In this document: positions 7,065 to 57,773 of the stretch, in pieces | How the letters are laid out: every line of letters starts with the position of its first letter | Position numbering within the stretch: the stretch's first letter is position 1 | From: Xanthomarina sp. F1114 | GTDB taxonomy: Bacteria > Bacteroidota > Bacteroidia > Flavobacteriales > Flavobacteriaceae | DNA length: 64,000 bases | Direction: 5' to 3' | NCBI RefSeq assembly: GCF_026410255.1 | Contig: NZ_JAPMLL010000006.1 | Coordinates: 62,001-126,000, forward strand | Position numbers and translations under genes: made by a program | Notes under the pieces: generated by a model | Database searches by the model: none | The model's input: only the letters and a program-made list of their open reading frames with translations | What the model was told of the DNA's origin: nothing

Positions 7065-7628
7065 GTGACTAAAGACCAACTTTATAATGAATTAAATTTC
7101 GTGAATCATACGCGAGACAAGCGTTTGAAGTATGCTAATTTAATTTTAGACACACCAGAATTACTTCCTAATTTATTGGATATTCTATTTGATGTAGACG
7201 ATAAAACATCTTGTAGAGCAGCTTGGGTCTTAGAGTTTGTATGCGCCGACAACTTAGAATTACTACTTCCTTACTTGGATGTATTTACTGAAAATATTAA
7301 TAAGGTGCATTTAGATCCAGCAGTAAGACCAATTGCAAAAATATGTGAGTATTTAGCAAAAGCATATTTTTCTAAAACAGCGAATAAGGTACAATTAACT
7401 TTAACCAATAAACACAAAGAGCTAATTGTAGAAACTTGTTTTGACTATATGATTAACGATGAAAAAATAGCACCCAAAGCATATTCTATGAACACACTTT
7501 TCCTCTTTGGAAATGAATTTGATTGGATTCATCTAGAATTAATAACAATTATAGAACGGGATTACCAGATACAGAGCTCGGGTTTTAAAGCACGGGCAAG
7601 GCAGATTTTAAAAAAGATTAAGAAGTAG
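7065..7628 (+). CDS. Conserved helical-repeat protein, HEAT-like (function unknown)
   Basis: A 187-residue, mostly alpha-helical cytoplasmic protein starting at GTG. Helical pairs such as LLPNLLDILFDVDDKTSCRA and WVLEFVCADNLELLLPYLD suggest HEAT/ARM-like repeats. It lies upstream of purB on the same strand with about 120 bp between, including a promoter box. In related bacteria proteins of this type next to purB can carry the name adenylosuccinate lyase by proximity; no lyase motif is present. No function is proposed. Confidence 0.7.
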   Translation: MTKDQLYNELNFVNHTRDKRLKYANLILDTPELLPNLLDILFDVDDKTSCRAAWVLEFVCADNLELLLPYLDVFTENINKVHLDPAVRPIAKICEYLAKAYFSKTANKVQLTLTNKHKELIVETCFDYMINDEKIAPKAYSMNTLFLFGNEFDWIHLELITIIERDYQIQSSGFKARARQILKKIKK

Positions 7629-7747: not shown

Positions 7748-9091
7748 ATGTCTTTAACATCTTTAAATGCTATTTCTCCTATCGATGGTCGTTACAGAAA
7801 TAAAGTAAACGAATTAGCGCCATATTTTTCTGAAGAAGCCTTAATTAAATATCGAGTTCAAGTAGAAATCGAGTATTTTATTGCACTTTGCGAAGAGCCT
7901 CTACCTCAACTTGAAGCTTTTAACACCAATTTATTTGATGATTTACGTGCTATCTACAAGAATTTTACAGCTATTGATGCGTCTGCCATTAAGGAAATTG
8001 AAAAAGTAACTAATCACGATGTAAAAGCTGTTGAATATTTTATAAAAGACAAGTTTGATGCTTTAGGCATTTCAGAATATAAAGAGTTTATTCATTTCGG
8101 ATTAACATCTCAAGATATTAATAATACGGCTATCCCTTTAAGTATTAAGGAAGCTATGAATGCTGTTTATGTGCCGGAGTACATTATTCTTCATAAAAAA
8201 TTAAAAGATCTTTCTAAAGACTGGGCAAACATTCCAATGTTAGCCAGAACCCACGGACAGCCGGCTTCTCCTACTCGTTTAGGAAAAGAAATTGAAGTGT
8301 TTGTTGTTAGACTTGAGGAGCAATTTAATTTATTAAATGATATTCCAAGTGCTTCAAAATTTGGAGGTGCTACAGGAAACTTTAACGCCCATAAAGTGGC
8401 ATATCCAAATATAGACTGGAGAGCTTTTGGTAAGAATTTTGTTCAGGGAAAATTGGGTATGCAACATTCATTTCCAACCACACAGATTGAGCATTACGAC
8501 CATATGGCGGCTCTATTTGATTGCTTAAAACGCATTAATACTATTTTAATAGATTTAAATAGAGACATTTGGACTTATGTGTCTATGGATTATTTTAAGC
8601 AAAAAATTAAAGCTGGAGAAGTTGGTAGTTCTGCTATGCCACATAAGGTAAATCCGATTGATTTTGAAAATAGCGAAGGAAATTTAGGCATTGCCAATGC
8701 TATATTTGAACATTTATCTGCTAAACTTCCTATTTCTAGGCTACAAAGAGATTTAACAGACAGCACGGTTTTACGTAATGTTGGCGTGCCGTTTGGACAT
8801 ACTTTAATTGGATTTAAATCTACTTTAAAAGGTTTAGGGAAATTACTTTTAAACGAAAGTAAATTTGCTGAAGATTTAGAAAATAATTGGGCTGTTGTGG
8901 CAGAAGCAATTCAAACTATTTTACGTCGAGAAGCTTACCCTAATCCTTATGAAGCTTTAAAAGGATTAACTAGAACCAATGAGAAAATTAATCAAAAGTC
9001 TATTTCAAATTTTATTGATACCTTAGAGGTTTCAGAAAGTATTAAAAAGGAATTAAAAACCATTACTCCAAGTAATTATACTGGAATATAA
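7748..9091 (+). CDS. purB: Adenylosuccinate lyase
   Basis: 447 residues, full length. This homotetrameric fumarase/aspartase-superfamily enzyme acts twice in purine synthesis: it splits SAICAR to AICAR and adenylosuccinate to AMP, releasing fumarate. The signature loop GSSAMPHKVNP with its catalytic serine is near residues 293-303. The TSQDINNTA segment and ARTHGQPASPTRLGKE supply the other active-site blocks. Start at ATG with MSLTSLNAISPIDGRY, the normal family N-terminus. A small membrane-protein gene follows after two bases, suggesting cotranscription. Confidence 0.97.
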   Translation: MSLTSLNAISPIDGRYRNKVNELAPYFSEEALIKYRVQVEIEYFIALCEEPLPQLEAFNTNLFDDLRAIYKNFTAIDASAIKEIEKVTNHDVKAVEYFIKDKFDALGISEYKEFIHFGLTSQDINNTAIPLSIKEAMNAVYVPEYIILHKKLKDLSKDWANIPMLARTHGQPASPTRLGKEIEVFVVRLEEQFNLLNDIPSASKFGGATGNFNAHKVAYPNIDWRAFGKNFVQGKLGMQHSFPTTQIEHYDHMAALFDCLKRINTILIDLNRDIWTYVSMDYFKQKIKAGEVGSSAMPHKVNPIDFENSEGNLGIANAIFEHLSAKLPISRLQRDLTDSTVLRNVGVPFGHTLIGFKSTLKGLGKLLLNESKFAEDLENNWAVVAEAIQTILRREAYPNPYEALKGLTRTNEKINQKSISNFIDTLEVSESIKKELKTITPSNYTGI

Positions 9092-13147: not shown

Positions 13148-13339
13148 ATGACAGCTTACAAAACCTACTTTAATTGGAGTACTGGAAAAGATTCTGCCCT
13201 GGCACTTTATTACTTATTACAAGATAAAGGTTTTAGTGTTGATAAACTAGTAACAACCGTTGAGCACAAGGCTGAGCCAACGCTCGGCAGGCACATTTAT
13301 TTTTTGCCAAACCACGCCATCAAACGCACAAAAAAATAA
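13148..13339 (+). pseudogene. 5' fragment of a Dph6-like ATP-pyrophosphatase gene, split by an insertion
   Basis: The first 37 codons encode YFNWSTGKDSALALYYLL, the ATP-binding PP-loop (SxGKDSA) of the diphthine-ammonia-ligase-like family, and run on to KLVTT. After codon 37 the frame enters foreign sequence and stops at 13339. The rest of the gene, in frame, resumes at 19702 with TINSAFNRVSMHG. Joining the two at the shared AACC gives an open frame of about 232 codons, the usual size of this bacterial family. In bacteria the enzyme's substrate is unknown, because diphthamide is not made. Confidence 0.85.
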
Positions 13340-13350
13340 AAGAGCCTGCT
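13259..13350. repeat. Stem-loop cluster at the left end of the insert (attC-like?)
   Basis: Two nested structures are seen. A small hairpin GCTGAGC-CAAC-GCTCGGC with one T-G wobble lies at about 13271-13288. A large imperfect inverted repeat pairs 13287-13307 (GCAGGC, then TTTATTTTTT) with 13326-13349 (AAAAAATAAA, then GCCTGC), with two mismatches, around an 18-base loop. Together with GTTGAGC at 13259 it resembles a folded single-strand recombination site, but no known attC was matched. A terminator is the plain alternative. Confidence 0.4.
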
Positions 13351-13530
13351 TTCCCACTCTGTAAAACAGGACTTACAAATAAGAAACAAACAAAAACTAA
13401 TTTTCAACTTACTCGTCGTATTTTCATTTTTTCGCGTTAACACTTCTTAACACTATATAACACTGATTAACTATTTTTTGGCTTGTATATGCTTTGCTTT
13501 GTTTTATATAAACAATTAAATTAAAATTTC

Positions 13531-13773
13531 ATGAAAAAATTAGTAACCCTTTCGATGTTAGGACTTATGTCTGTAGCGGTATTTGCCTCAAATGAAGGAA
13601 GTACTAAAGGCTTTTTTGAAGCAAATTTAGAGCACACAAACAGTGCAGAAACTCTTAATGCCGTAAAAGCACAAATTACTGTAAATTGTGAAGACGGTTC
13701 TTCATACACTGTTAGTTGTGATAGTTGCACTACTGGGCAACTTATAGATATTGCATGGACTTTGTGTAACTAA
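13531..13773 (+). CDS. Small secreted cysteine-rich peptide precursor
   Basis: 80 residues. A Sec signal peptide (about 1-19, ending VFA) is followed by a polar leader with the segment AETLNAVKAQITVNC and a C-terminal part holding all four cysteines at 53, 63, 66 and 79 (CEDGSS, SCDSC, TLCN). The layout recalls the NVEALA-type small exported peptides of Bacteroidota, though the exact NVEALA box is not present. It is first in the inserted cassette, closed by its own terminator, and followed by a GLPGLI protein and an outer-membrane barrel. A role as secreted signal, toxin or structural peptide is inference only. Confidence 0.7.
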   Translation: MKKLVTLSMLGLMSVAVFASNEGSTKGFFEANLEHTNSAETLNAVKAQITVNCEDGSSYTVSCDSCTTGQLIDIAWTLCN

Positions 13774-13782
13774 ACTATCTAC

Positions 13783-13812
13783 CCTTCTCGGTTGAACTGA
13801 GAAGGATTTTTA
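13783..13812 (+). terminator. Terminator after the small peptide gene
   Basis: CCTTCTC and GAGAAGG, extendable to eleven pairs with one mismatch, form a stem followed by ATTTTTA. It lies ten bases after the stop codon and 25 before the next gene, so it may set peptide mRNA above that of the downstream genes. Confidence 0.7.
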
Positions 13813-13837
13813 TACAATTAAAAACAATCACAGTATT

Positions 13838-14632
13838 ATGAGATATTTAATATTTTTCTTCCTTGTTACATTAACTGATATCTGTAGTGCCCAGAATAAG
13901 GGCATTGTTTATTATGGACATATAGAAAGCCCTGGAAAAGGTGGTCCTGCCGGGTTGGACTTTAATGCTTATTTGGTCTTTGACAAGACTGCTTCCTATT
14001 ATGTAACTGCAAAAGATTCACTGGAAAATCAAGCTGAATTAGAAAGGCAACAAACCAAAGAAGTAAATGGAACAACCCAAATGTATGTGGGTAAGCATAC
14101 ATTGCCACAAGGTAAGCAGGTATATTATAACCGCCACAAAGACAGCCTTTGGTGGAACAAAAAGTATAAAGAACCTGTTTATGGTCGTGAAAAAAGAGAT
14201 AGAATCAATTGGAAATTAGAATCCGAAACCAAAACCTTTGGAGGACTTACTTGTCATAAAGCTACCGGAGTTTTCAGAGGGAAAACCTATACTGCTTGGT
14301 ATACAAAAAAAATACCTTTGCCATACGGGCCTTGGAAACTACAGGGACTTCCAGGGATTATACTTGAAGCCTACGATGAGAAAAAGGAAATGTACTTGTA
14401 TTTTAAATCAATAGAATATCCTACACCACAGAACCTATCAATAGGGCCAGTTGTAAAACCCAAAGAAGACAGCAATTACAATTGGATTTCACTTAACGAG
14501 TACAAAAACTTATTAGAAAAATTAGTCGAAAGAAACAAAACGAAAGCCATACTGATTGCCAAACAAATAGGTGGAGATGTAACCGTAGATTCAGGAGGCA
14601 TTGAAACATTAAGCGTTGAGCTTTTTAATTAA
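13838..14632 (+). CDS. GLPGLI family protein
   Basis: 264 residues, signal peptide of about 18 residues (ending CSAQ). The naming motif appears as WKLQGLPGIILEAYD near 167-181, with LTCHKATGVFRGKTYTAWYT upstream, which is the typical strand pattern of the family. GLPGLI proteins are periplasmic or surface proteins of Bacteroidota, often coded beside TonB-receptor-like barrels; their biochemical role is unknown. Here it lies between the small peptide gene and an 868-residue outer-membrane protein, followed by a terminator. Confidence 0.85.
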   Translation: MRYLIFFFLVTLTDICSAQNKGIVYYGHIESPGKGGPAGLDFNAYLVFDKTASYYVTAKDSLENQAELERQQTKEVNGTTQMYVGKHTLPQGKQVYYNRHKDSLWWNKKYKEPVYGREKRDRINWKLESETKTFGGLTCHKATGVFRGKTYTAWYTKKIPLPYGPWKLQGLPGIILEAYDEKKEMYLYFKSIEYPTPQNLSIGPVVKPKEDSNYNWISLNEYKNLLEKLVERNKTKAILIAKQIGGDVTVDSGGIETLSVELFN

Positions 14633-14657
14633 ATTTCGATTTTTTTTAAGTTTTATC

Positions 14658-14688
14658 AAACCCCATTTGCTTATGGGGTTTCATTTTT
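14658..14688 (+). terminator. Terminator after the GLPGLI gene
   Basis: AAACCCCAT and ATGGGGTTT form a perfect nine-base stem around TTGCTT, followed by CATTTTT. It lies 14 bases before the ATG of the outer-membrane protein, so read-through or a promoter inside this short gap would be needed for the next gene. Confidence 0.75.
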
Positions 14689-14701
14689 ACAAGATGCCTC
14701 A

Positions 14702-17308
14702 ATGAGATCTATATTACCTCTTATATTCCTTTTCGTAACTATCCGTATTTTGGGGCAAGATATCAGCGTTTCGGGCTCAATAACTAACCATCAACTTCAA
14801 CCTATTGAAAGTGCTCTTGTATTAGTTAAGAGCCAAAATAATGATGTTTTGAGTTATACATATAGTAATGAAAAAGGCTTCTATCTGTTAGAATTTGAAA
14901 CAGACACCGTGCAATTATATTTGATCGAAGTTTCAAGTTTGGGCTATACTACAATTAAAAGGGAAGTAGAGATAAACAAACCCACTCAGAACATCAACTT
15001 TAAAATGGAGGAGCAAATGGAGTCCTTAAAAGAAGTTGTAGTAGAAGCACACCAAAAAATTAGGATAAACGCTGATACTACTTTTATCAGGGTGTCCCCA
15101 TACACCACAAAAACAGAAGAAACTGTTGAAGATGTTTTAAGGCGGTTGCCAGGAATAGAAATTTTACCCGATGGCAGTATAAAAGCCCATGGAAAACCTA
15201 TAGAAAGCCTGTTGATAGAAGGAGAAAATATTTTAGGAAAAAACTATAAAATTCTATCCAAGAATTTGGATGCTAAAACATTGGAGGAAGTCCAAATTTT
15301 AGACCATTACGAAGAGAATCCCATTTTCAAAAACCTGTCAAATTCAGAAAAAGTAGCCATAAACCTAAAGTTAAAAAATGATTTTAAAAATATTTGGTTT
15401 GGCAATGTTTCTGCAGGTTATGGATTTAAAAACCGTTATCAAAGAGCAATAACATTAGGTTTGTTGAAAAAGCGGATAAAACTGCTGGAATTTAGCAATG
15501 GTAACAACATAGGGGATAAAGCAGCGAACCTTTTGAGCAATGATGAAATCGTGATTGATTTATCTCAAATGTTTCAACATATAGAGAAGAAACCATTTTT
15601 GGTTTTTTCAATCGATGAGCAGGAAAACAATGTGTTTAATAGTAGGAGTAGTTTCAACACGTCCATGCTTCATTCGCTTGGCCTGTCTTCAAAAATAAGC
15701 GAAAGGTTTACCGTTAGAGGTTCTGCAAATTTTGTTTATGACAAAACCACACAAGACTATCAAGCCATTACCCAATATAATACAGGGGAGAACTCGACTA
15801 CATTTTCAGAAACAAATAACTATCAAAATAATAACCAGGCTGGTTCAGGAGAATTAGAACTAAAATACATTCCTAACTCAAAAAATTACCTAACTAATAT
15901 TATTAAATATACCTTTAATCCTCAAAAAGCATTTAATGGCATAATCTTAGGCAACACAAATGTATTGCAACAAAACGATGCTTTTTCAGAAACATTTTAT
16001 AACCATTTAGAACACACCTATCTTTTAACGCCTAATACAGCATTGTATAATTATCTTTATTTAGGCTATGGCAGTTCAAAGGAAAGCGTAAAAATTGAAT
16101 ACCCAGTCCTAAATGATTTTTTAGAAATAGAAAACCCCGAACCTGTTTTTCAGGATGCTTCAGATAAGTTTAATTATTACGGTTTGCAAAGCACCTTGCT
16201 TACTAAACGAAGAAAATGGGAAAACCAGTTGAAGTTTTACGCCCATATGGAAAATGAAAATGCTTCAAGCAGACTTTTTACTAAAAACCAAAATGATTTT
16301 GAAGATTATACAAATAACCTAAAAATCGATAATAATTTTGTTTCGGTATCCAATGCTTTTAAATATAAACTAAAACAAGATAATTACATAAGAGGCAGCT
16401 TTATTTTTACCCAAGATTGGTTTAATAAAAATAACTATTTACTAAAAAGTGCCTCTCTCACTTTTAGACAAAAGTTAAAAAATATTGGAGACATTAGGAT
16501 AGGCTACAATTACAAAGAAGATTTGCCAAAAACACCAATGCTTCTATATAATTTTGCTTTAAACTCATATCAAGGTTTCGAAAAAGGAACCAATAAAATT
16601 ACCAAATTGAAAAGTTCAATTTTTTCATTTAATTACAGTTTTTACAACGATATTAAAGGGTTCTCTGTTAATAGTTCTGTATTGCACACAATTACGCATT
16701 TGGGTTATGCAACCAATACATCTATAAACAATAATTTCATTTTCGTCGATTTGTTACCTTATTCTGGAGGAAGTAATACTTTAGCCAATGCCAGTCTTAC
16801 CAGTTATTTTAGTAAATTAAAAATAGCCACCAAATGGGAAACTAGTCAAAGTTTTATAGAATCCCCTCTTTCTGACGACGGAGAAGAAGTATTTAACCTT
16901 AAAAATTATTCAGGAAACTATGCTTTTTCTGCAAGCTCTTATTTTAACAAATGGTTTAATTTTTCAGGTGGGTTTTCTTATAAGTTTTCTTCTTCAAAAG
17001 TAGATAGGGAATCGAATTCTTTTAAATCAAAAAAGGTTTTCTTAGACTTAAATATTAAAATTTCAGAATCATTAAAAGCCACTGTAAATAATGAGTCTTA
17101 TTTATTGGAAAATGATACATATCTTTTTTTAAACGCAACCATTACCTACGAGCCTCAAAAAAGCAGATGGTCTACAAGCTTATACTTAAATAATTTATTT
17201 AATGAAGAAGATTATCTGGTTGAACAGATTAGCTCATTTATGTCCTATCAAAAACTCATTAAGTTAGCGCCTGCATATGCACTTTTCAGTATAAAATATA
17301 GATTTTAG
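14702..17308 (+). CDS. TonB-receptor-like outer-membrane protein with carboxypeptidase-regulatory-like domain
   Basis: 868 residues. Signal peptide of about 18 residues; a CarboxypepD_reg-like beta-sandwich at about 22-105 (VSGSITNHQLQPIESALV ... KVEI-like end); a plug domain at about 118-215 (VEDVLRRLPGIEILPDGSI, IEGENILGKNYKILSKNL); then a long aromatic-rich beta-barrel ending in FSIKYRF with the terminal phenylalanine of outer-membrane barrels. This is the Bacteroidota barrel class that often accompanies GLPGLI proteins and lacks a clear TonB box. It could take up or export a ligand, possibly the peptide coded upstream; that is inference. Confidence 0.87.
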   Translation: MRSILPLIFLFVTIRILGQDISVSGSITNHQLQPIESALVLVKSQNNDVLSYTYSNEKGFYLLEFETDTVQLYLIEVSSLGYTTIKREVEINKPTQNINFKMEEQMESLKEVVVEAHQKIRINADTTFIRVSPYTTKTEETVEDVLRRLPGIEILPDGSIKAHGKPIESLLIEGENILGKNYKILSKNLDAKTLEEVQILDHYEENPIFKNLSNSEKVAINLKLKNDFKNIWFGNVSAGYGFKNRYQRAITLGLLKKRIKLLEFSNGNNIGDKAANLLSNDEIVIDLSQMFQHIEKKPFLVFSIDEQENNVFNSRSSFNTSMLHSLGLSSKISERFTVRGSANFVYDKTTQDYQAITQYNTGENSTTFSETNNYQNNNQAGSGELELKYIPNSKNYLTNIIKYTFNPQKAFNGIILGNTNVLQQNDAFSETFYNHLEHTYLLTPNTALYNYLYLGYGSSKESVKIEYPVLNDFLEIENPEPVFQDASDKFNYYGLQSTLLTKRRKWENQLKFYAHMENENASSRLFTKNQNDFEDYTNNLKIDNNFVSVSNAFKYKLKQDNYIRGSFIFTQDWFNKNNYLLKSASLTFRQKLKNIGDIRIGYNYKEDLPKTPMLLYNFALNSYQGFEKGTNKITKLKSSIFSFNYSFYNDIKGFSVNSSVLHTITHLGYATNTSINNNFIFVDLLPYSGGSNTLANASLTSYFSKLKIATKWETSQSFIESPLSDDGEEVFNLKNYSGNYAFSASSYFNKWFNFSGGFSYKFSSSKVDRESNSFKSKKVFLDLNIKISESLKATVNNESYLLENDTYLFLNATITYEPQKSRWSTSLYLNNLFNEEDYLVEQISSFMSYQKLIKLAPAYALFSIKYRF

Positions 17309-17319
17309 CCTTGTTGAAA

Positions 17320-18006
17320 TCACACTACAAACTTGTAGCCAACTCCTCTAACATTTAAGATTTTGATAGTTTTATCTTGAGATAATTTTTTTCTTAATTT
17401 ACTGATAAATACATCCATACTTCTAGCAGAATAAAAAGAGGTGTCTCCCCACAATTGTTTTAACACTAAAGAACGCTCCACAACTTTATTTTTGTGTTGC
17501 AACAAAAGTAACAGCAGTAAACTTTCTTTACTAGTAAGGTCTTCCTTATTTTCTTCTTTATATTGAAGTGTTTGCTTTTTAGAATTAAACTTATAATTAC
17601 CTATAACCATGTCTTTTTCTCCATGAGAAACCATTTGTTTATTGTTCAACAAATTTTTAATTCGCGCAATAAGTTCCTCTATACTAAATGGTTTTTTTAG
17701 ATAATCATTACCACCAGTATTAAATCCTTCAACAACGTCATGAGGTTGTGATTTTGCTGTTAGGAAAATTATTGGCGTTTCCTCATCTGTTTTCCTGATG
17801 TGTTGCGCTAAAGTAAAACCATCCATTTTTGGCATCATGACATCAAGCACCAAAATATCTGGTTTTTGAGCCCTGTACAATATAAACGCCTCATCTCCAT
17901 CATGGCATAGTTGTACGACAAAACCTCTAGTTTCAAGACTTTCTTTTACAATTTGACCAAGCGTTATTTCGTCTTCTGCAAATAAAATGGTGTGCTCTTT
18001 ATTCAT
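17320..18006 (-). CDS. OmpR-family response regulator
   Basis: 228 residues. Receiver domain 1-120 with acidic pair E11/D12, phospho-acceptor D55 (LVLDVMMPK), the threonine in IIFLTAKS and the lysine of LKKPFS. Winged-helix DNA-binding domain from about 130 to the end (LTSKESLLLLLLLQHKN, SMDVFISKLRKKL, NVRGVGYKF). The gene overlaps the histidine kinase by four bases (ATGA) and converges on the outer-membrane gene with only 11 bp between. It probably controls the peptide/GLPGLI/barrel genes of the same insert. Confidence 0.92.
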   Translation of the reverse strand: MNKEHTILFAEDEITLGQIVKESLETRGFVVQLCHDGDEAFILYRAQKPDILVLDVMMPKMDGFTLAQHIRKTDEETPIIFLTAKSQPHDVVEGFNTGGNDYLKKPFSIEELIARIKNLLNNKQMVSHGEKDMVIGNYKFNSKKQTLQYKEENKEDLTSKESLLLLLLLQHKNKVVERSLVLKQLWGDTSFYSARSMDVFISKLRKKLSQDKTIKILNVRGVGYKFVV

Positions 18007-19379
18007 TCGTTTGGTATTGATATTATAAATGTTGTTTTGTTATCCTTAAAAAACACTTTTGCCATCCCATGATGTTTTTCCGCTATTTTTTTAACGTGAT
18101 ACAACCCGACTCCATAGCCCTTTACTTCGTGAAGATTACCGTGGGGAACACGGTAAAATTTATCAAAAACTTTTGCTCTTTGTTCTTTATTCAGGCTATT
18201 TCCATTATCGCTTACAGCAAGGGTAAATTCTTGAGTATTTTCAACTAAAATTTCAATTTGATTTCCTCCATATCTTATAGCGTTGTCCAACAAGCAACCC
18301 AAGGCATTCCCTAAATGAAATGGATCTATAAACGTCTGGTTTTGGATGACTTTAGACACCTCCATTACAATCTCTTTTTCAGAGTTCAACTTGTAATTTT
18401 CAACAATTGGAGCTATCCATTCTTTTATGTTTATGGTTTGCCTGTTTAAGTTCCAGTCATTAGTATCTAAAAAGGCTGTGTCCATAAGTTGATTTACCAT
18501 TTTTTCCAACTTTCCCAATTGTTGGTTAGAATAGTCCAAATATCTGTTGGTTTTTTCAAGATCATTGGAATCATTAAAGTATCGGATGCTTTCCAGTGCT
18601 GTTCCAATGATAGCAATAGGTGTCTTGAACTCGTGGGAAATGTTGCTAATCAAATCATTTTTTATTTCAGAAAGTTGTTTTTGTTGCTTTACTATGTACA
18701 ATAAATAAAACAAGGCAAATAGAATGATTATTACCAATAAAAATGATAAAATAATATTGATCAGACTTTTTTTAAGGATAACCTTAACCGCATTGGGAAA
18801 CAACATTTCAATTTTTTCTCCTTTTTTCAAATAAGTGGATTTCCCCTTTGTAGAAAGATGTTTAGAAAATATAGCTCCTCTATGTGATGTTGCAAAAAGT
18901 GTGTCCTGCTTGTAATAATTTAAGGTATAAGGAATAGTATATTCTTTTCTATCCAATTCATTGTCCAGAAAGACCTTTAGCTTTTTAAAATTGATGGAAT
19001 CCTTGTTTATTGATATATTTATCATTTTAACATTTGCAGTAGAGGAAAGGCTCTCATGTATTTTGTCGTCTTTAAAAACTGAAATGTTTTTCGGTTCTCC
19101 CTTCATAGAAATAGCCCCCATAACCTTCTTTTCTATAGATAGATTAGACGGTCTTTCCAGGGAATCTGTTGGAACAATTAAGGTGATGTTTTTTTGCTCG
19201 GAAACCTTTATAAAATAATTGTCAAGAGCAACATCCAATGATTGTTGCATTTCCCTTTTAAAATTTGAACTGTTTTTTTGGAAATCAATATAACCTGAAT
19301 ACAATTGCACTGCTATTGTAGCTAGAATGGCAATAGTTAATAAATATGGTATTCGACGATATAATTTTTGCATAATCAA
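18003..19379 (-). CDS. Membrane sensor histidine kinase
   Basis: 458 residues. Two membrane helices (about 10-28 and 207-232) enclose a periplasmic sensor of about 180 residues with no recognised fold. The H-box SNISHEFKTPIAIIG has its histidine near 249; N-box LLDNAIRYGG, G1 VSDNGN and G2 GYGVGLYHV follow. HisKA plus HATPase class. It forms an operon with the response regulator. The signal is unknown; a periplasmic sensor beside an exported peptide gene and an outer-membrane barrel makes an envelope or peptide cue plausible. Confidence 0.92.
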   Translation of the reverse strand: MIMQKLYRRIPYLLTIAILATIAVQLYSGYIDFQKNSSNFKREMQQSLDVALDNYFIKVSEQKNITLIVPTDSLERPSNLSIEKKVMGAISMKGEPKNISVFKDDKIHESLSSTANVKMINISINKDSINFKKLKVFLDNELDRKEYTIPYTLNYYKQDTLFATSHRGAIFSKHLSTKGKSTYLKKGEKIEMLFPNAVKVILKKSLINIILSFLLVIIILFALFYLLYIVKQQKQLSEIKNDLISNISHEFKTPIAIIGTALESIRYFNDSNDLEKTNRYLDYSNQQLGKLEKMVNQLMDTAFLDTNDWNLNRQTINIKEWIAPIVENYKLNSEKEIVMEVSKVIQNQTFIDPFHLGNALGCLLDNAIRYGGNQIEILVENTQEFTLAVSDNGNSLNKEQRAKVFDKFYRVPHGNLHEVKGYGVGLYHVKKIAEKHHGMAKVFFKDNKTTFIISIPNE

Positions 19380-19437
19380 ATCAAAGGTAGTGTATTATTA
19401 TTTTTAGAAAAACAAATATGGTGATAACTGTCCATAA

Positions 19438-19596
19438 CAACAACTTCAAATTCACGCAAGCACAACCCGTTTTTACCAGCGTAAAAAGCCATCCCTCAAT
19501 AAACGGGAAGAGCTTGCTAATTTAGGTCGTCTGAAGAAACTAACGGCTGAATTGCAAGCTGTACTCAGAAAACCCAGTGCTCAACAATGGCTATAA
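19438..19596 (+). pseudogene. Start-less coding remnant, C-terminal part of an unknown protein
   Basis: A 52-codon stretch, opened only by a stop and lacking a start, translates to a basic helical C-terminus with KKPSLNKREELANLGRLKK and VLRKPSAQQWL before its stop. The base composition is visibly richer in G and C than the flanks. It sits between the histidine kinase and the right junction of the insert, where a transposition or integration gene would be expected, but I do not recognise the family. Confidence 0.45.
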
Positions 19597-19668
19597 AAAA
19601 CAGCTAATTAATACTTAACTTAAACTTTTTGCTATATTTATAACGAAAAAGATTGCTCGGAAAGGTCA

Positions 19669-19684
19669 GCGTGCACTTGCACGC
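19669..19684. repeat. Perfect short hairpin near the right end of the insert
   Basis: GCGTGCA-CT-TGCACGC is a perfect seven-base inverted repeat, 17 bases inside the right junction. No T-run follows, so it is not a typical terminator. It could be an end structure of the inserted DNA. Confidence 0.4.
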
Positions 19685-19701
19685 CACTTTTCATCGCCAA
19701 A

Positions 19702-20292
19702 ACCATAAACAGCGCTTTTAATCGGGTGTCCATGCATGGCATTAGAATTTCCTTATTGGAAAAACAAGTTGCAGCTTTAGGAATTCCTCTTTCGCTAATA
19801 AAACTTCCAGAACAACCCAGTATGGAGGATTACAACCGTATTATGACCCAAGCTACAAATCAACTTAAAAAAGATGGTTATAGTTATGGGGCGTTTGGCG
19901 ATATTTTATTAGAAGATTTAAAACAATATCGTGAAAAACAATTAGGAAATCAAGGGATAAAAACGGTGTTTCCACTTTGGCAACGAAATACAAGCGAATT
20001 AATGCAAGAGTTTCTTGATGTAGGCTTTAAGGCAGTTGTAGTTTGTGCCGATTCAAAACATTTTTCGGAAGATTTTGTTGGAAGAACGTTGGACGAAGAT
20101 TTAATTGCTTCCCTTCCAGAGGTAGTTGATCCGTGTGGCGAAAATGGCGAATTCCATACTTTTTGTTTTGATGGTCCTATATTTAAAAATCCTATAGAAT
20201 TTGAAGTGGGAGAAAAAACCTATCGCGAATATCCAAAACCGAATTCTACCGATGCTGCTTCAGGGTTTTGGTTTTGCGATTTACTTGGATAA
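19702..20292 (+). pseudogene. 3' fragment of the Dph6-like ATP-pyrophosphatase gene
   Basis: Continues the gene begun at 13148: in-frame codons from ACC at 19702 give TINSAFNRVSMHG, then LPEQPSMEDYN, YGAFGDILLEDL, and the C-terminal VDPCGENGEFHTFCFDGPI that is the hallmark of this family, ending FWFCDLLG. A GTG at 19726 could restart translation, but the product would lack the ATP-binding PP-loop, so activity is unlikely. The coding frame is otherwise undamaged, which suggests the split is recent. Confidence 0.85.
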
Positions 20293-21485: not shown

Positions 21486-23321
21486 TTAAAAATTAAGGTT
21501 TATATAAAAGTTATAATTAATTCCAGGCATATATCTATTTACTACTGCCTGATAATTGACATTAAAAAGATTCTCAAATTGAATTCCTACAGTGTAATTA
21601 AGGTGTTTTCCAAAGGCATATTCTGCTCCAGCATTCGATAATAAATAAGCATCTAAAACATACTTTGGATTATTATCTGATAATGTAAACACTTCTCCCA
21701 CATATAACATTTGGTAATATGCAGACACACGTTTGTATTGATAATTCAAGGAAGCCGTAGCTTTATGGTAAGGCACATAAATTAGCTGCTTTTTGGTTTC
21801 TTTATTCTCAGACACGGTATAAGCATAAGTGCTTCCTAGAGATATTTTATGAGCTTGAAATTGTTGTTCAAACTGAAATTTAGCTTCAAGTCCGTAACTT
21901 AAAACCTTATCGGTATTTATAGGTGTCCATATACTTCCGTTAGGAAGCCAACGAATCATATTTTTAATGTCGTTATAATACGCTACCACAGAAAAAGACA
22001 ATTTGTTAAACTTTAATTCATTTCCTAGTTCTATCTGGTAGGATGTTTCTGGGTTTAACTCCAAGTTTCCACTTCCAAACCAATACAAATCGTTGTATGT
22101 AGGTATTCTAAAATTCTTAGAACCATTAATATTGATACGATAGTTGGGAGTTACACGATATTGCAATCCCAGACTATACAGCAAAGGACTTTCATAATTA
22201 TTAGTAAGTTCTTTTCTAAGACTGGCTTCGTATAAAAACTTATTAAAGGTTTGCTTAAACAATAAACTGAAACTAGAAATAGTTCGTTCATTTTTAGCAA
22301 TATCAGAGCCTTCTCCCGTGGTAGTTTTTAAATCTAAAACACCTTGTAAACTAGCATTTTTAAGAATCTTATAGTCTAACTGATACTTTCCTATAAACGA
22401 TTTTGCATCTCCAAAACTAAAGTTCTCCTTTTCTATATTCGGGAAGTATTTATATTTTTCTGTTATATGTGCCAGGCTCATGGTAGAAATAAACCTCCCA
22501 TAAAAACCTTGCCATTCTAAAAGGTTTCTAGTATTAAAATCTTGATATTTTGTAGGAGTTTCCGAAGGAAAAATTAAAGAAAAATGACGGTCGGAATCAA
22601 ACAAATAACTGTACAGCTTTACAACATTCTTATTATTTATTTTGTAACCAACATTTGCAGAAAATGTAGCATTATAAAATTGACCATTTAAATTAGTTTT
22701 ATCGCTGTCTACGTACGGATAATCGTTTGAGGAACTTGTTCTACTTAAGCCTATTTCAACAGAAAATTTATCTGTAGATATGCTTCCATTATAGCTAAGA
22801 TCTAATGTATTAAAGCTACCATAATTAGCGTAAAGTTTGTTTTGGAAACCAGAATTAAATTTCAGATTATTATTTAAATGTACCGAACCACCAATAGCAC
22901 CACTTCCATAGAGCACAGAGCCACCTCCACTTCTAACTGTAATATTATTGAAGTTTCTAATATTAATGGTATTAAAATCTGTTTGCCCATTAAATTGTGA
23001 ATTAATATTAATCCCATTCCAAATAACGGCTGTTTGCTGCGCAGTTGTCCCTCTAAAAGATGGAGACGACACCATACCTAAACCATTTTCCTTAAAGTAA
23101 ATAGAACCATTATTATTGAGCAGTTGTGTTAAAGATGAAGCGCTTCTTGTTAAAACACTATCTTTTAAAACACTTGTGAGCTGCGTATCTGAAAACGTTT
23201 GTAGATAGCTATCAGATTTTAAAACAATTTCGTCAAGTTGTTGTATGGAGTCCAGAGGCGACTGCGACCATGCCACAACACCTATATGTAATACCAGAAA
23301 AAAGCTAAAAACCTGTTTCAT
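21486..23321 (-). CDS. btuB: BtuB-like TonB-dependent cobalamin receptor
   Basis: 611 residues. Signal peptide ending AWSQ; TonB-box-like LDEIVLKS near residues 29-36; plug domain about 45-150 (GMVSSPSFRGTTAQQTAVIWNG, then VRSGGGSVLYGSGAIGG); beta-barrel to the C-terminal NFYINLNF. Size and plug motifs fit outer-membrane vitamin B12 receptors. Assignment to B12 rests mainly on the cobalamin riboswitch just upstream and on the BtuG-like and BtuFCD-like neighbours. Confidence 0.87.
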   Translation of the reverse strand: MKQVFSFFLVLHIGVVAWSQSPLDSIQQLDEIVLKSDSYLQTFSDTQLTSVLKDSVLTRSASSLTQLLNNNGSIYFKENGLGMVSSPSFRGTTAQQTAVIWNGININSQFNGQTDFNTINIRNFNNITVRSGGGSVLYGSGAIGGSVHLNNNLKFNSGFQNKLYANYGSFNTLDLSYNGSISTDKFSVEIGLSRTSSSNDYPYVDSDKTNLNGQFYNATFSANVGYKINNKNVVKLYSYLFDSDRHFSLIFPSETPTKYQDFNTRNLLEWQGFYGRFISTMSLAHITEKYKYFPNIEKENFSFGDAKSFIGKYQLDYKILKNASLQGVLDLKTTTGEGSDIAKNERTISSFSLLFKQTFNKFLYEASLRKELTNNYESPLLYSLGLQYRVTPNYRININGSKNFRIPTYNDLYWFGSGNLELNPETSYQIELGNELKFNKLSFSVVAYYNDIKNMIRWLPNGSIWTPINTDKVLSYGLEAKFQFEQQFQAHKISLGSTYAYTVSENKETKKQLIYVPYHKATASLNYQYKRVSAYYQMLYVGEVFTLSDNNPKYVLDAYLLSNAGAEYAFGKHLNYTVGIQFENLFNVNYQAVVNRYMPGINYNFYINLNF

Positions 23322-23362
23322 ATCCTTAAAGTTCTTTTCCCGAAAACTTTTAATTTAAGTTG

Positions 23363-23615
23363 ATAATCATGGCAGGTCTCCTGACTTGTTTTATGCTATT
23401 GAACCTTCCCAGCTTTTATAAACCAGTGGTTATTGAAGTAATAGCCTCTCTAAAATGAGATACGTTTAATTAAGACGTATAAACTTACAGTTGCGGGAAC
23501 AGTCCAAGAATGAAGATTAACGCATATTGGTTTTTGATTTTATGAACTACAACATATAATTCAACAATCGCTTTTTAACAAGCATCAATCTTTTCACTTG
23601 ATTCCCTTTTAATCG
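23363..23615 (-). promoter_or_regulatory. Cobalamin (AdoCbl-type) riboswitch
   Basis: On the minus strand the element reads, in order: GGGAATCAAGTGAAAA near 23590-23607, GGACTGTTCCCGCAACTG near 23490-23508, CCACTGG with GGGAAGG near 23408-23432, and AGTCAGGAGACCTGCC near 23371-23387. These are the conserved blocks of the B12 riboswitch, including the B12 box, in the right order and spacing. It precedes the BtuB-like gene by about 40 bases and would switch off the receptor and lipoprotein genes when cobalamin is plentiful. Confidence 0.93.
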
Positions 23616-23688
23616 ACTATTTAGTCGAACCAAAATTCTTTACAAAAATAGATTAATAAAAATGAATTACTCAAAGAACTTTAGAAAA

Positions 23689-56237: not shown

Positions 56238-57773
56238 TTATTCCCATTCGATAGTTGCTGGCGGTTTTGAGCTTATATCATACACTACTCTATTAACGCC
56301 TTTTACTTTATTTATTATATCGTTTGATGTTTTTTGTAAAAATTCGTAAGGTAAATTTACCCAATCGGCTGTCATTCCATCTGTACTTTCTACGGCTCTA
56401 AGTGCTACACATTTTTCGTATGTACGTTCATCTCCCATAACTCCAACGCTATTAACTGGTAAGAGTATAGCTCCTGCTTGCCAAACTTTATCGTACAAAT
56501 TCCATTCCTTTAAACCGTTTATAAAAACAGCATCAACTTCTTGCAAAATACGAACTTTTTCGGGAGTAATATCTCCCAAAATACGAATAGCTAATCCTGG
56601 TCCTGGAAATGGATGACGGCCTAAAAGGTTTTTATCCATATCCATAGAAGCTCCAACACGACGAACCTCATCTTTAAATAAAGCTTTAAGAGGTTCTACA
56701 ATTTTGAGTTTCATAAAATCCGGTAAACCACCTACATTATGGTGACTTTTAATGGTTGCACTTGGACCACCAGTGGCTGAAACACTTTCTATAATATCTG
56801 GATAGATAGTTCCTTGAGCTAACCACTTTACATCTGTAATTTCATGAGCTTCATCATCAAAAACTTCAATAAACACACGACCAATAGCTTTACGTTTTTC
56901 TTCCGGATCACTTAAGCCTGCAAGTGCCTCTAAAAAGCGACTTGAAGCATCAACACCCTTTACATTAAGCCCCATATCTTTATATTGTTCCAGAACATCT
57001 GTAAATTCATTTTTTCGTAATAAACCATTATTCACAAAAATACAATACAGGTTTTTGCCAATTGCTTTGTGTAATAACATGGCAGCTACAGAAGAATCAA
57101 CTCCTCCAGAAAGTCCAAGCACGACTCTATCGTTTCCTATTTTATTTTGTAAATCTTCTACAGTTTCTTCTACAAAAGATTGTGGTGTCCAATCTTGCTC
57201 AACTTTGGCAATATTTACTAAAAAGTTCTCTAGTAATTGTTTCCCATCTGTTGAATGATATACTTCTGGATGAAACTGAATAGCGTAAGTATCTTCGCCT
57301 TCAATTTTGTATGCAGCATTATGTACATCGTGCGTACTTGCCAATAAAACACCGTTTGTTGGTAGACTTTTGATAGTATCACTATGACTCATCCATACTT
57401 GACTTCCTACTTGTAAGTTTTCAAAGAAAGCTTCGTCAGGTTTTATATAAGACAGCTTAGCACGGCCATATTCTCTGGTATTTGAAGGAGCTACTTCGCC
57501 TCCAGAAAAATGAGCCAGATATTGAGCTCCATAACAAACAGCCAATAAAGGTTTTTTAGCTCTAATTTGAGATAGATCTGGATGAAGTACATTTTCTGCT
57601 CTTACAGAATTTGGACTTCCCGATAGAATAACTGCTTTGTATTCATCAACCTCTTTAGGGATTTTGTTGTATGGATAAATCTCACAATAAATGTTGAGTT
57701 CTCTCACGCGACGTGCAATAAGTTGTGTGTATTGCGAGCCGAAATCTAAAATAAGTACTTTGTTGTGTTGCAT
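56238..57773 (-). CDS. guaA: GMP synthase (glutamine-hydrolysing)
   Basis: 511 residues. Class I amidotransferase domain with Cys in [11 protein letters not shown] (near 80) and His/Glu in [12 protein letters not shown]-pyrophosphatase domain with [15 protein letters not shown] near 218-232. C-terminal dimer domain with [19 protein letters not shown] and the final PPATIEWE. Makes GMP from XMP. The ATG at 57773 ([13 protein letters not shown]) is the normal start; a TAnnTTTG box ends three bases before it, so the transcript is probably leaderless. Confidence 0.96.

Follow-up and report, generated by a model that had tools for sequence, protein, structure and literature searches.

A 6.4-kb insert in a dph6-type gene of Xanthomarina sp. 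F1114 as a very probable gene cassette of a flavobacterial integron system

Off-array insertion of single gene cassettes at secondary or attG sites has reportedly been described by Recchia and Hall (1995) and by Loot et al. (2024). The integrons to which such cassettes belong, class 1 integrons and the chromosomal integrons of Vibrio, combine a recombinase gene, an attI-like site and arrays of cassettes that end in attC sites; their R'' and R' boxes are complementary, GTT stands at the crossover and the bottom strand of attC folds better than the top strand. According to passages of PMC10127599, class 1 integrons offer precedents for off-array insertion, and GTTRRRY is the R' motif of integron cassettes. 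Here we describe a 6446-bp insert that splits a dph6-type gene in a 64,000-nt stretch of the Xanthomarina sp. F1114 genome (contig NZ_JAPMLL010000006.1, positions 62,001 to 126,000; "the window" below). With high confidence we regard it as a single gene cassette of a flavobacterial integron system that was joined into dph6.

For the phylum, parts of PMC9024848 relate that an earlier survey of Bacteroidetes had found only In0 elements, followed by one complete integron in Salinibacter ruber. Bacteroidota or Bacteroidetes/Chlorobi are named among the groups with integrons or intI in sections of PMC8618304 and PMC2426708, and the presence of integrons in the phylum is therefore no novelty in itself. 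No report of flavobacterial cassette arrays was found by title and start of abstract among the top-ranked open-licence PMC matches, preprints excluded, which leaves their absence from the literature unproven.

Precise interruption of a dph6-type gene

The dph6-type gene is split at 13258/13259 and 19704/19705 by the insert (window 13259-19704). The open reading frame (ORF) formed by its 5' part and read-through into the insert (13148-13339) matches Pfam Diphthami_syn_2 at 21.4 bits, below the cut-off of 23.2, and the ORF of the 3' part scores 101.2 bits. In the sister genome G004 the gene is whole, in one open frame, and the joined flanks of the window align to it gap-free through the junction. 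Deleting the insert in silico yields 232 codons and a stop, exactly the length of the sister gene. A first-pass annotation of the window had proposed that an insert splits one living dph6-type gene, that AACC stands at both junctions (13255-13258 and 19701-19704) and that removal restores about 232 codons; it had also suggested looking for the uninterrupted gene in close relatives. These observations are confirmed, and the reading as insertion into a living gene is supported by the intact sister gene with its exact empty site. The junction shows one difference: directly 3' of AACC the window reads A, the sister G, so the crossover could lie before or after G.

Comparisons were made within a set of 149 Flavobacteriales genomes that includes our own, 90 from the family Flavobacteriaceae and 59 from the rest of the order. 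The 3' part of dph6 was matched in 47 of them (own included), mostly in a single open frame of about 213-273 aa; among those listed, four contain internal stops (G008, G021, G108 and G135), and that in G085 is short (169 aa). Separate genes for the two halves are not the pattern among the matches listed. Within the genus (eight genomes, own included), the matches are in our genome and in G004.

Thirteen synonymous and eight non-synonymous differences (pS 0.090, pN 0.015) separate the gene from that of the sister, none of them in the first 111 nt, and neither half contains a stop or a frameshift. The pN/pS ratio near 0.16 and the lack of stops in both halves are in keeping with a young insertion, as measured against the divergence from the sister. 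Because the 21 differences in all cannot be assigned to the window or the sister lineage, the term "recent" rests mostly on the open frames. Both end stretches of the insert occur once in the own genome, and the whole left-end stretch is absent from the other genomes of the set, the right end not having been searched in relatives. With few amino-acid changes added to these features, the earlier suggestion of a probably recent event gains support. Since the interruption falls 3' of the PP-loop, the function of dph6 was very likely lost.

An assembly chimera of an array cassette and dph6 would suit a draft genome of 56 contigs in which array contigs are short or end within an array. However, the cassette ends are single copy, just 4 bp are common at the junction and contig C53 is 208 kb long, all of which makes a chimera scarcely credible.

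Cassette boundary and attC of the insert

The insert opens with GTTGAGCAC at 13259, and this start is the exact complement of the R'' box GTGCTCAAC at 19577-19585, the beginning of a 128-nt attC. The start fits its own attC at 9 of 9 positions and the nine attCs of array contig C22 at 7 at most. An attC model built only from eight C22 array attCs recovers this site weakly, at 23.9 bits (E 0.0043), over window 19577-19713 and on the expected minus strand. The start also reads GTTGAGC and so fits GTTRRRY, as none of ten C22 cassette starts does.

The same architecture is repeated in the arrays of the own genome. This genome holds an attI-like site, a gene for a tyrosine recombinase of 408 aa and 47 attC sites arranged in arrays. 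On C22 the recombinase gene is followed by attI and then by the cassette array, in which genes run to the contig end and attC-like sites occupy the gaps between them. All nine complete C22 cassettes start with GTT and six further bases, a nonamer exactly complementary to one at the cassette's own end; mismatched pairings fit the equivalent stretch at 5 to 8 of 9 positions at best. Across the five own array contigs, start and end agree at 9/9 in 40 of 42 internal cassettes and in 25 of 1722 non-own pairs, a count that used 46 of 59 whole-genome attC matches plus the first C22 attC. The attC model finds 48 sites in the genome at E<=1e-8, of which 46 lie in the five array contigs and one each on C54 and C42. 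For the nine C22 sites and that of the insert, all found without the model, DNA energies make the bottom strand more stable in 10/10, and L-box wobbles number 26 on the bottom strand and 0 on the top (two sites fitted at shifted register). One array cassette (L067:15329-15775) encodes a protein with a Cass2 (integron-associated effector-binding) domain.

These boundaries bear directly on the origin of AACC, the overlap at the boundary of an integron cassette, for which no target duplication by a transposon is required. A transposon or insertion sequence-like element that made a 4-bp AACC duplication, its transposase lost or acting in trans, would explain why AACC stands at both junctions and why the insert ORFs include no recombinase, in agreement with the first-pass annotation, which had seen no intact transposase or integrase. 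But no transposase was found among the five insert ORFs scanned, the termini are by inspection not inverted repeats of each other, the ends are single copy in the genome, and the complement of the start is an R'' box lying 128 nt from the right end, the arrangement of array cassettes. We rejected this explanation as highly improbable, the ends being those of a cassette. Joining of a cassette circle into dph6 by host repair at 4-bp microhomology, without a recombinase, would agree with AACC being common to target and cassette end and with a target that is not attI-like. It is nevertheless improbable, given that the crossover lies exactly at the boundary used by array cassettes, one position in the 6446 of the circle.

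The target in dph6 has an attI score of -16, and 1001 of 2856 GT sites in the window score as high. As it lies outside an array and is not attI-like, the insertion is, judged from sequence, a natural off-array, attG-like event. It resembles known off-array insertions in being a single cassette, placed precisely at a short non-attI site, and differs from them in having occurred naturally in a flavobacterial chromosome, in splitting a coding gene and in having an empty site in a sister genome. Unlike the cassettes of class 1 and Vibrio integrons, the insert is 6.4 kb long, carries five ORFs on both strands and has hairpins near both ends.

In the route we propose, an attC-bearing circle, either excised from an array or of outside origin, would have been joined into dph6 at the short AACC/G(T) site. 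The joining would be the work of the tyrosine recombinase beside the C22 array or of a relative, and the likely substrate, by analogy with integrons, would be the folded bottom strand of attC reacting single-stranded. The product would be a chromosomal copy of a self-contained module of a small ORF, a GLPGLI protein, an outer-membrane-type protein and a two-component system. Both the attC and the cassette start are intact, and excision may be possible.

Several observations weigh against a cassette of this system. The insert attC scores just 23.9 bits in the attC model, was not among the matches of the whole-genome scan (150 of 521 candidates scored) and has nearly equal strand energies (-20.9 bottom, -20.1 top). 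At 6446 bp the insert exceeds the 42 array cassettes (median 842, maximum 2712 bp) and the first C22 cassette (3234 bp). The A that replaces the sister's G after the right AACC requires a mutation or an older polymorphism. Finally, no attC was found in two of the recombinase loci described below, L079 with 2164 nt and L186 with 5.9 kb of downstream DNA.

Recombinase, attI and spread of the arrays

Matches to the C22 recombinase occur in 143 of the 149 genomes. Distant matches, with lengths near 300 aa and 30-35% identity, are in many cases likely to be ordinary Xer proteins. Among the 30 best recombinase loci, attC was found in 21. In 20 of the 21, a TATATAAC-like sequence precedes the first cassette, which starts at a distance of 26-111 nt from the recombinase stop codon. 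Start and R'' agree at 9/9 in 18 of the 21 and at 8/9 in three; one of the 18 (L083) has the attI-like motif, with its matched cassette 3.2 kb away. Eight of the nine loci without a detected attC have at most 359 nt of downstream DNA, the ninth being L079. The attI motif or a variant is present at all 30, with the consensus nGnnTATATTnGTnnnnATATAACnA followed by GTT in 29 and GTATAACAA followed by GTT in the thirtieth; in the register common to the 29 aligned sites, two have poor scores (-10.5 and -5.3). In a genome of the same genus, G003, the recombinase lies at the start of a contig.

The C22 protein resembles IntI in being a tyrosine recombinase beside attI and an array, and differs from it in lacking the IntI-specific insertion (15 residues between the aligned blocks, 59 in VchIntIA) and in carrying an extra N-terminal domain of about 90 aa. 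An alignment of 15 homologues likewise contains no inserted block. Against the IntI profile TIGR02249 the protein scores 179.3 bits (cut-off 265), and a TIGR02249 scan of the own genome returned no protein over the cut-off; VchIntIA (PDB 2a3v) gives 107 bits. The best NCBIfam profile is NF040815 (XerA), at 203 bits below the cut-off of 220, and the first Foldseek rank by E-value is 5hxy, although the AlphaFold model is moderate (pLDDT 77, pTM 0.47, poor C-terminus), which makes Foldseek ranks weak evidence. The added alpha/beta domain is conserved among array recombinases (e.g. L174:6016-6267) and has no confident Pfam or PDB sequence match. The protein is close to XerA, XerC and XerD by best profile and fold rank, and unlike them in staying under the XerA cut-off, in its added domain and in its place beside a cassette array. 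Xer proteins are not known to act on cassette arrays. Parts of PMC8138268 assign Xer proteins to chromosome dimer resolution and call the IntI-specific insertion essential for integron function, yet not fully conserved. Other tyrosine recombinases on C1 and C54 were not favoured as the array enzyme, attI and the array adjoining the C22 gene. A G004 recombinase (contig C71, 18924-20039) with about 36% identity to the C22 protein likewise adjoins attC sites.

At E<=1e-5, with 22 candidates scored per genome, attC sites were detected in 89 of the 149 genomes, comprising 79 of the 90 in the family and 10 of the 59 outside it. A second collection of named organisms covered 17 loci of Flavobacteriaceae or related Bacteroidia and 15 other loci. 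Of the former, 13 have an attC and 14 have the attI motif; attC was found in none of the latter 15. The four named loci without attC are L172 (about 60 nt downstream), L177 (about 110 nt), L185 (broken frame) and L186, and the attI regular expression failed in L170, L185 and L186. Five of the 45 attC matches were dropped: two echoes on the opposite strand, two with cut ends and one partial match. Agreement was 9/9 in 26 of 28 further cassettes, and the bottom strand was favoured in 39 of 40 sites with 98 wobbles against 3, a result biased in its favour by the bottom-strand model used to find the sites.

Taken by its sequence features, the system behaves as an integron, the cassette shows the features tested and the recombinase lies outside the IntI definition. 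The attI and attC sequences of flavobacteria are the group's own, unlike those of class 1 and Vibrio integrons; 0/10 C22 starts fit GTTRRRY and, by the tests made, the recombinase is not IntI. We lean towards a distinct integron class of Flavobacteriaceae, with attC-like folded sites, attI and a XerA-like recombinase that has an added N-terminal domain and no IntI insertion. If this is true, the IntI-specific insertion is not needed for cassette recombination, a need that the C22 recombinase makes testable, and chromosomal genes are reshaped, perhaps in a reversible way, by off-array insertions such as that in dph6. Provided that the array recombinase works, IntI-based surveys would miss a large cassette pool in the family.

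Cargo, hairpins and other off-array sites

The features of the interrupted gene and of the insert are collected in Table 1. The 80-aa ORF had no family match in Pfam or NCBIfam scans. The C32 paralogue of the cargo was rejected as the source of the insert, since no hairpin was found there and its sequence has diverged (34% identity). This locus (L131:1-3684, G000:C32) contains a GLPGLI and outer-membrane-type pair with an apparent small-ORF end in front.

Table 1. Features of the split dph6-type gene and its insert (window positions)
Feature	Position	Strand	Basis
dph6-type gene, 5' part (37 codons, PP-loop)	13148..13258	+	Pfam scan, sister alignment, codon comparison
AACC, left junction, crossover overlap	13255..13258	+	sequence; sister alignment
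Precise insert, very probable integron-type gene cassette, 6446 bp	13259..19704	+	empty site, R''/R' match, attC model
Cassette start GTTGAGCAC (R' box)	13259..13267	+	complementary 9/9 to R'' at 19577-19585
5' hairpin HP5, stem1-ACA-stem2-loop-stem2'-AGA-stem1'	13281..13359	+	profile 80.1 bits; covariation
80-aa ORF, by eye a secreted Cys-containing peptide	13531..13773	+	ORF list
GLPGLI family protein, 264 aa	13838..14632	+	TIGR01200 136 bits
868-aa protein with CarboxypepD_reg_2 domain, putative outer-membrane type	14702..17308	+	profile scan
OmpR-type response regulator (best NCBIfam match RprY, below cut-off)	17320..18006	-	profile scans
Sensor histidine kinase, HisKA + HATPase_c	18003..19379	-	profile scans
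3' hairpin HP3, CAAGC-ACA-ACCCGTTT...AAACGGGA-AGA-GCTTG	19456..19517	+	strict scan; profile 32.6 bits
attC of the insert cassette (R'' 19577-19585; folded strand minus)	19577..19704	+	R'' match, folding, model 23.9 bits, E 0.0043
AACC, right junction	19701..19704	+	sequence; sister alignment
dph6-type gene, 3' part	19705..20292	+	Pfam scan, sister alignment, codon comparison

A strict scan, with rules set up after such sites had been seen, returned HP5 and HP3 as the sole hairpins of the window against 0.2 expected (five mononucleotide shuffles). The profile search added one weak match (56991-57062, 22.4 bits, E 0.12); HP5, with its 80.1 bits, belongs to the 11 seed sequences from which the model was built. 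In 11 sequences, six pairs have changed on both sides; stem 1 holds five of them and stem 2 the sixth. Strong hairpins were found in 51 of the 149 genomes, at one to six per genome. In the own genome, the hairpin element lies directly behind the tyrosine recombinase gene on C22. Hairpins with the ACA/AGA internal loop and covarying stem, those at L067:7714-7789 and L146:259-338 included, lie near the ends of multi-gene cassettes.

Among the 148 other genomes, 16 match the left end of the insert over short stretches; nine of these matches share the hairpin, several of the nine next to a motif like (A)CCGTTGTGCATAATGC. An attC match directly 5' of the hairpin was obtained in five of the nine loci L050-L058 (L050, L051, L054 weakly, L055 and L057) and not in L052, L053, L056, where the hairpin is at the contig start, or L058. 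Hairpins in other loci precede self-contained modules, for example restriction-modification, DarT with a helicase and an ADP-ribosylglycohydrolase, or an RND transporter. In several of L050-L058, restriction-modification, DarT-type and metal-transport modules stand 3' of the hairpin. Our guess is that the hairpins act as terminators or insulators of cassettes that bring their own promoters.

Two single off-array attC sites, with no recombinase noted alongside, have an attI-like left junction: L142 (G000:C54, locus 7128-7263) and L143 (G000:C42, locus 7844-7978). Only 2 and 0, respectively, of the 2856 window GT sites score as high as their left sides. No exact cassette start for their R'' was found when looked for. 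The right junction of the C54 site is common to G004, which has about 6.4 kb of other DNA compared to about 0.5 kb in the own genome, and at the C42 site the own genome has about 1.5 kb where G004 has about 0.1 kb.

An Rfam scan of the window at gathering score assigned no RNA family to the hairpins and gave a cobalamin riboswitch as its sole match. This riboswitch (RF00174, 74.3 bits, 23354-23649) lies upstream of a minus-strand TonB-dependent receptor gene at 21486-23321.

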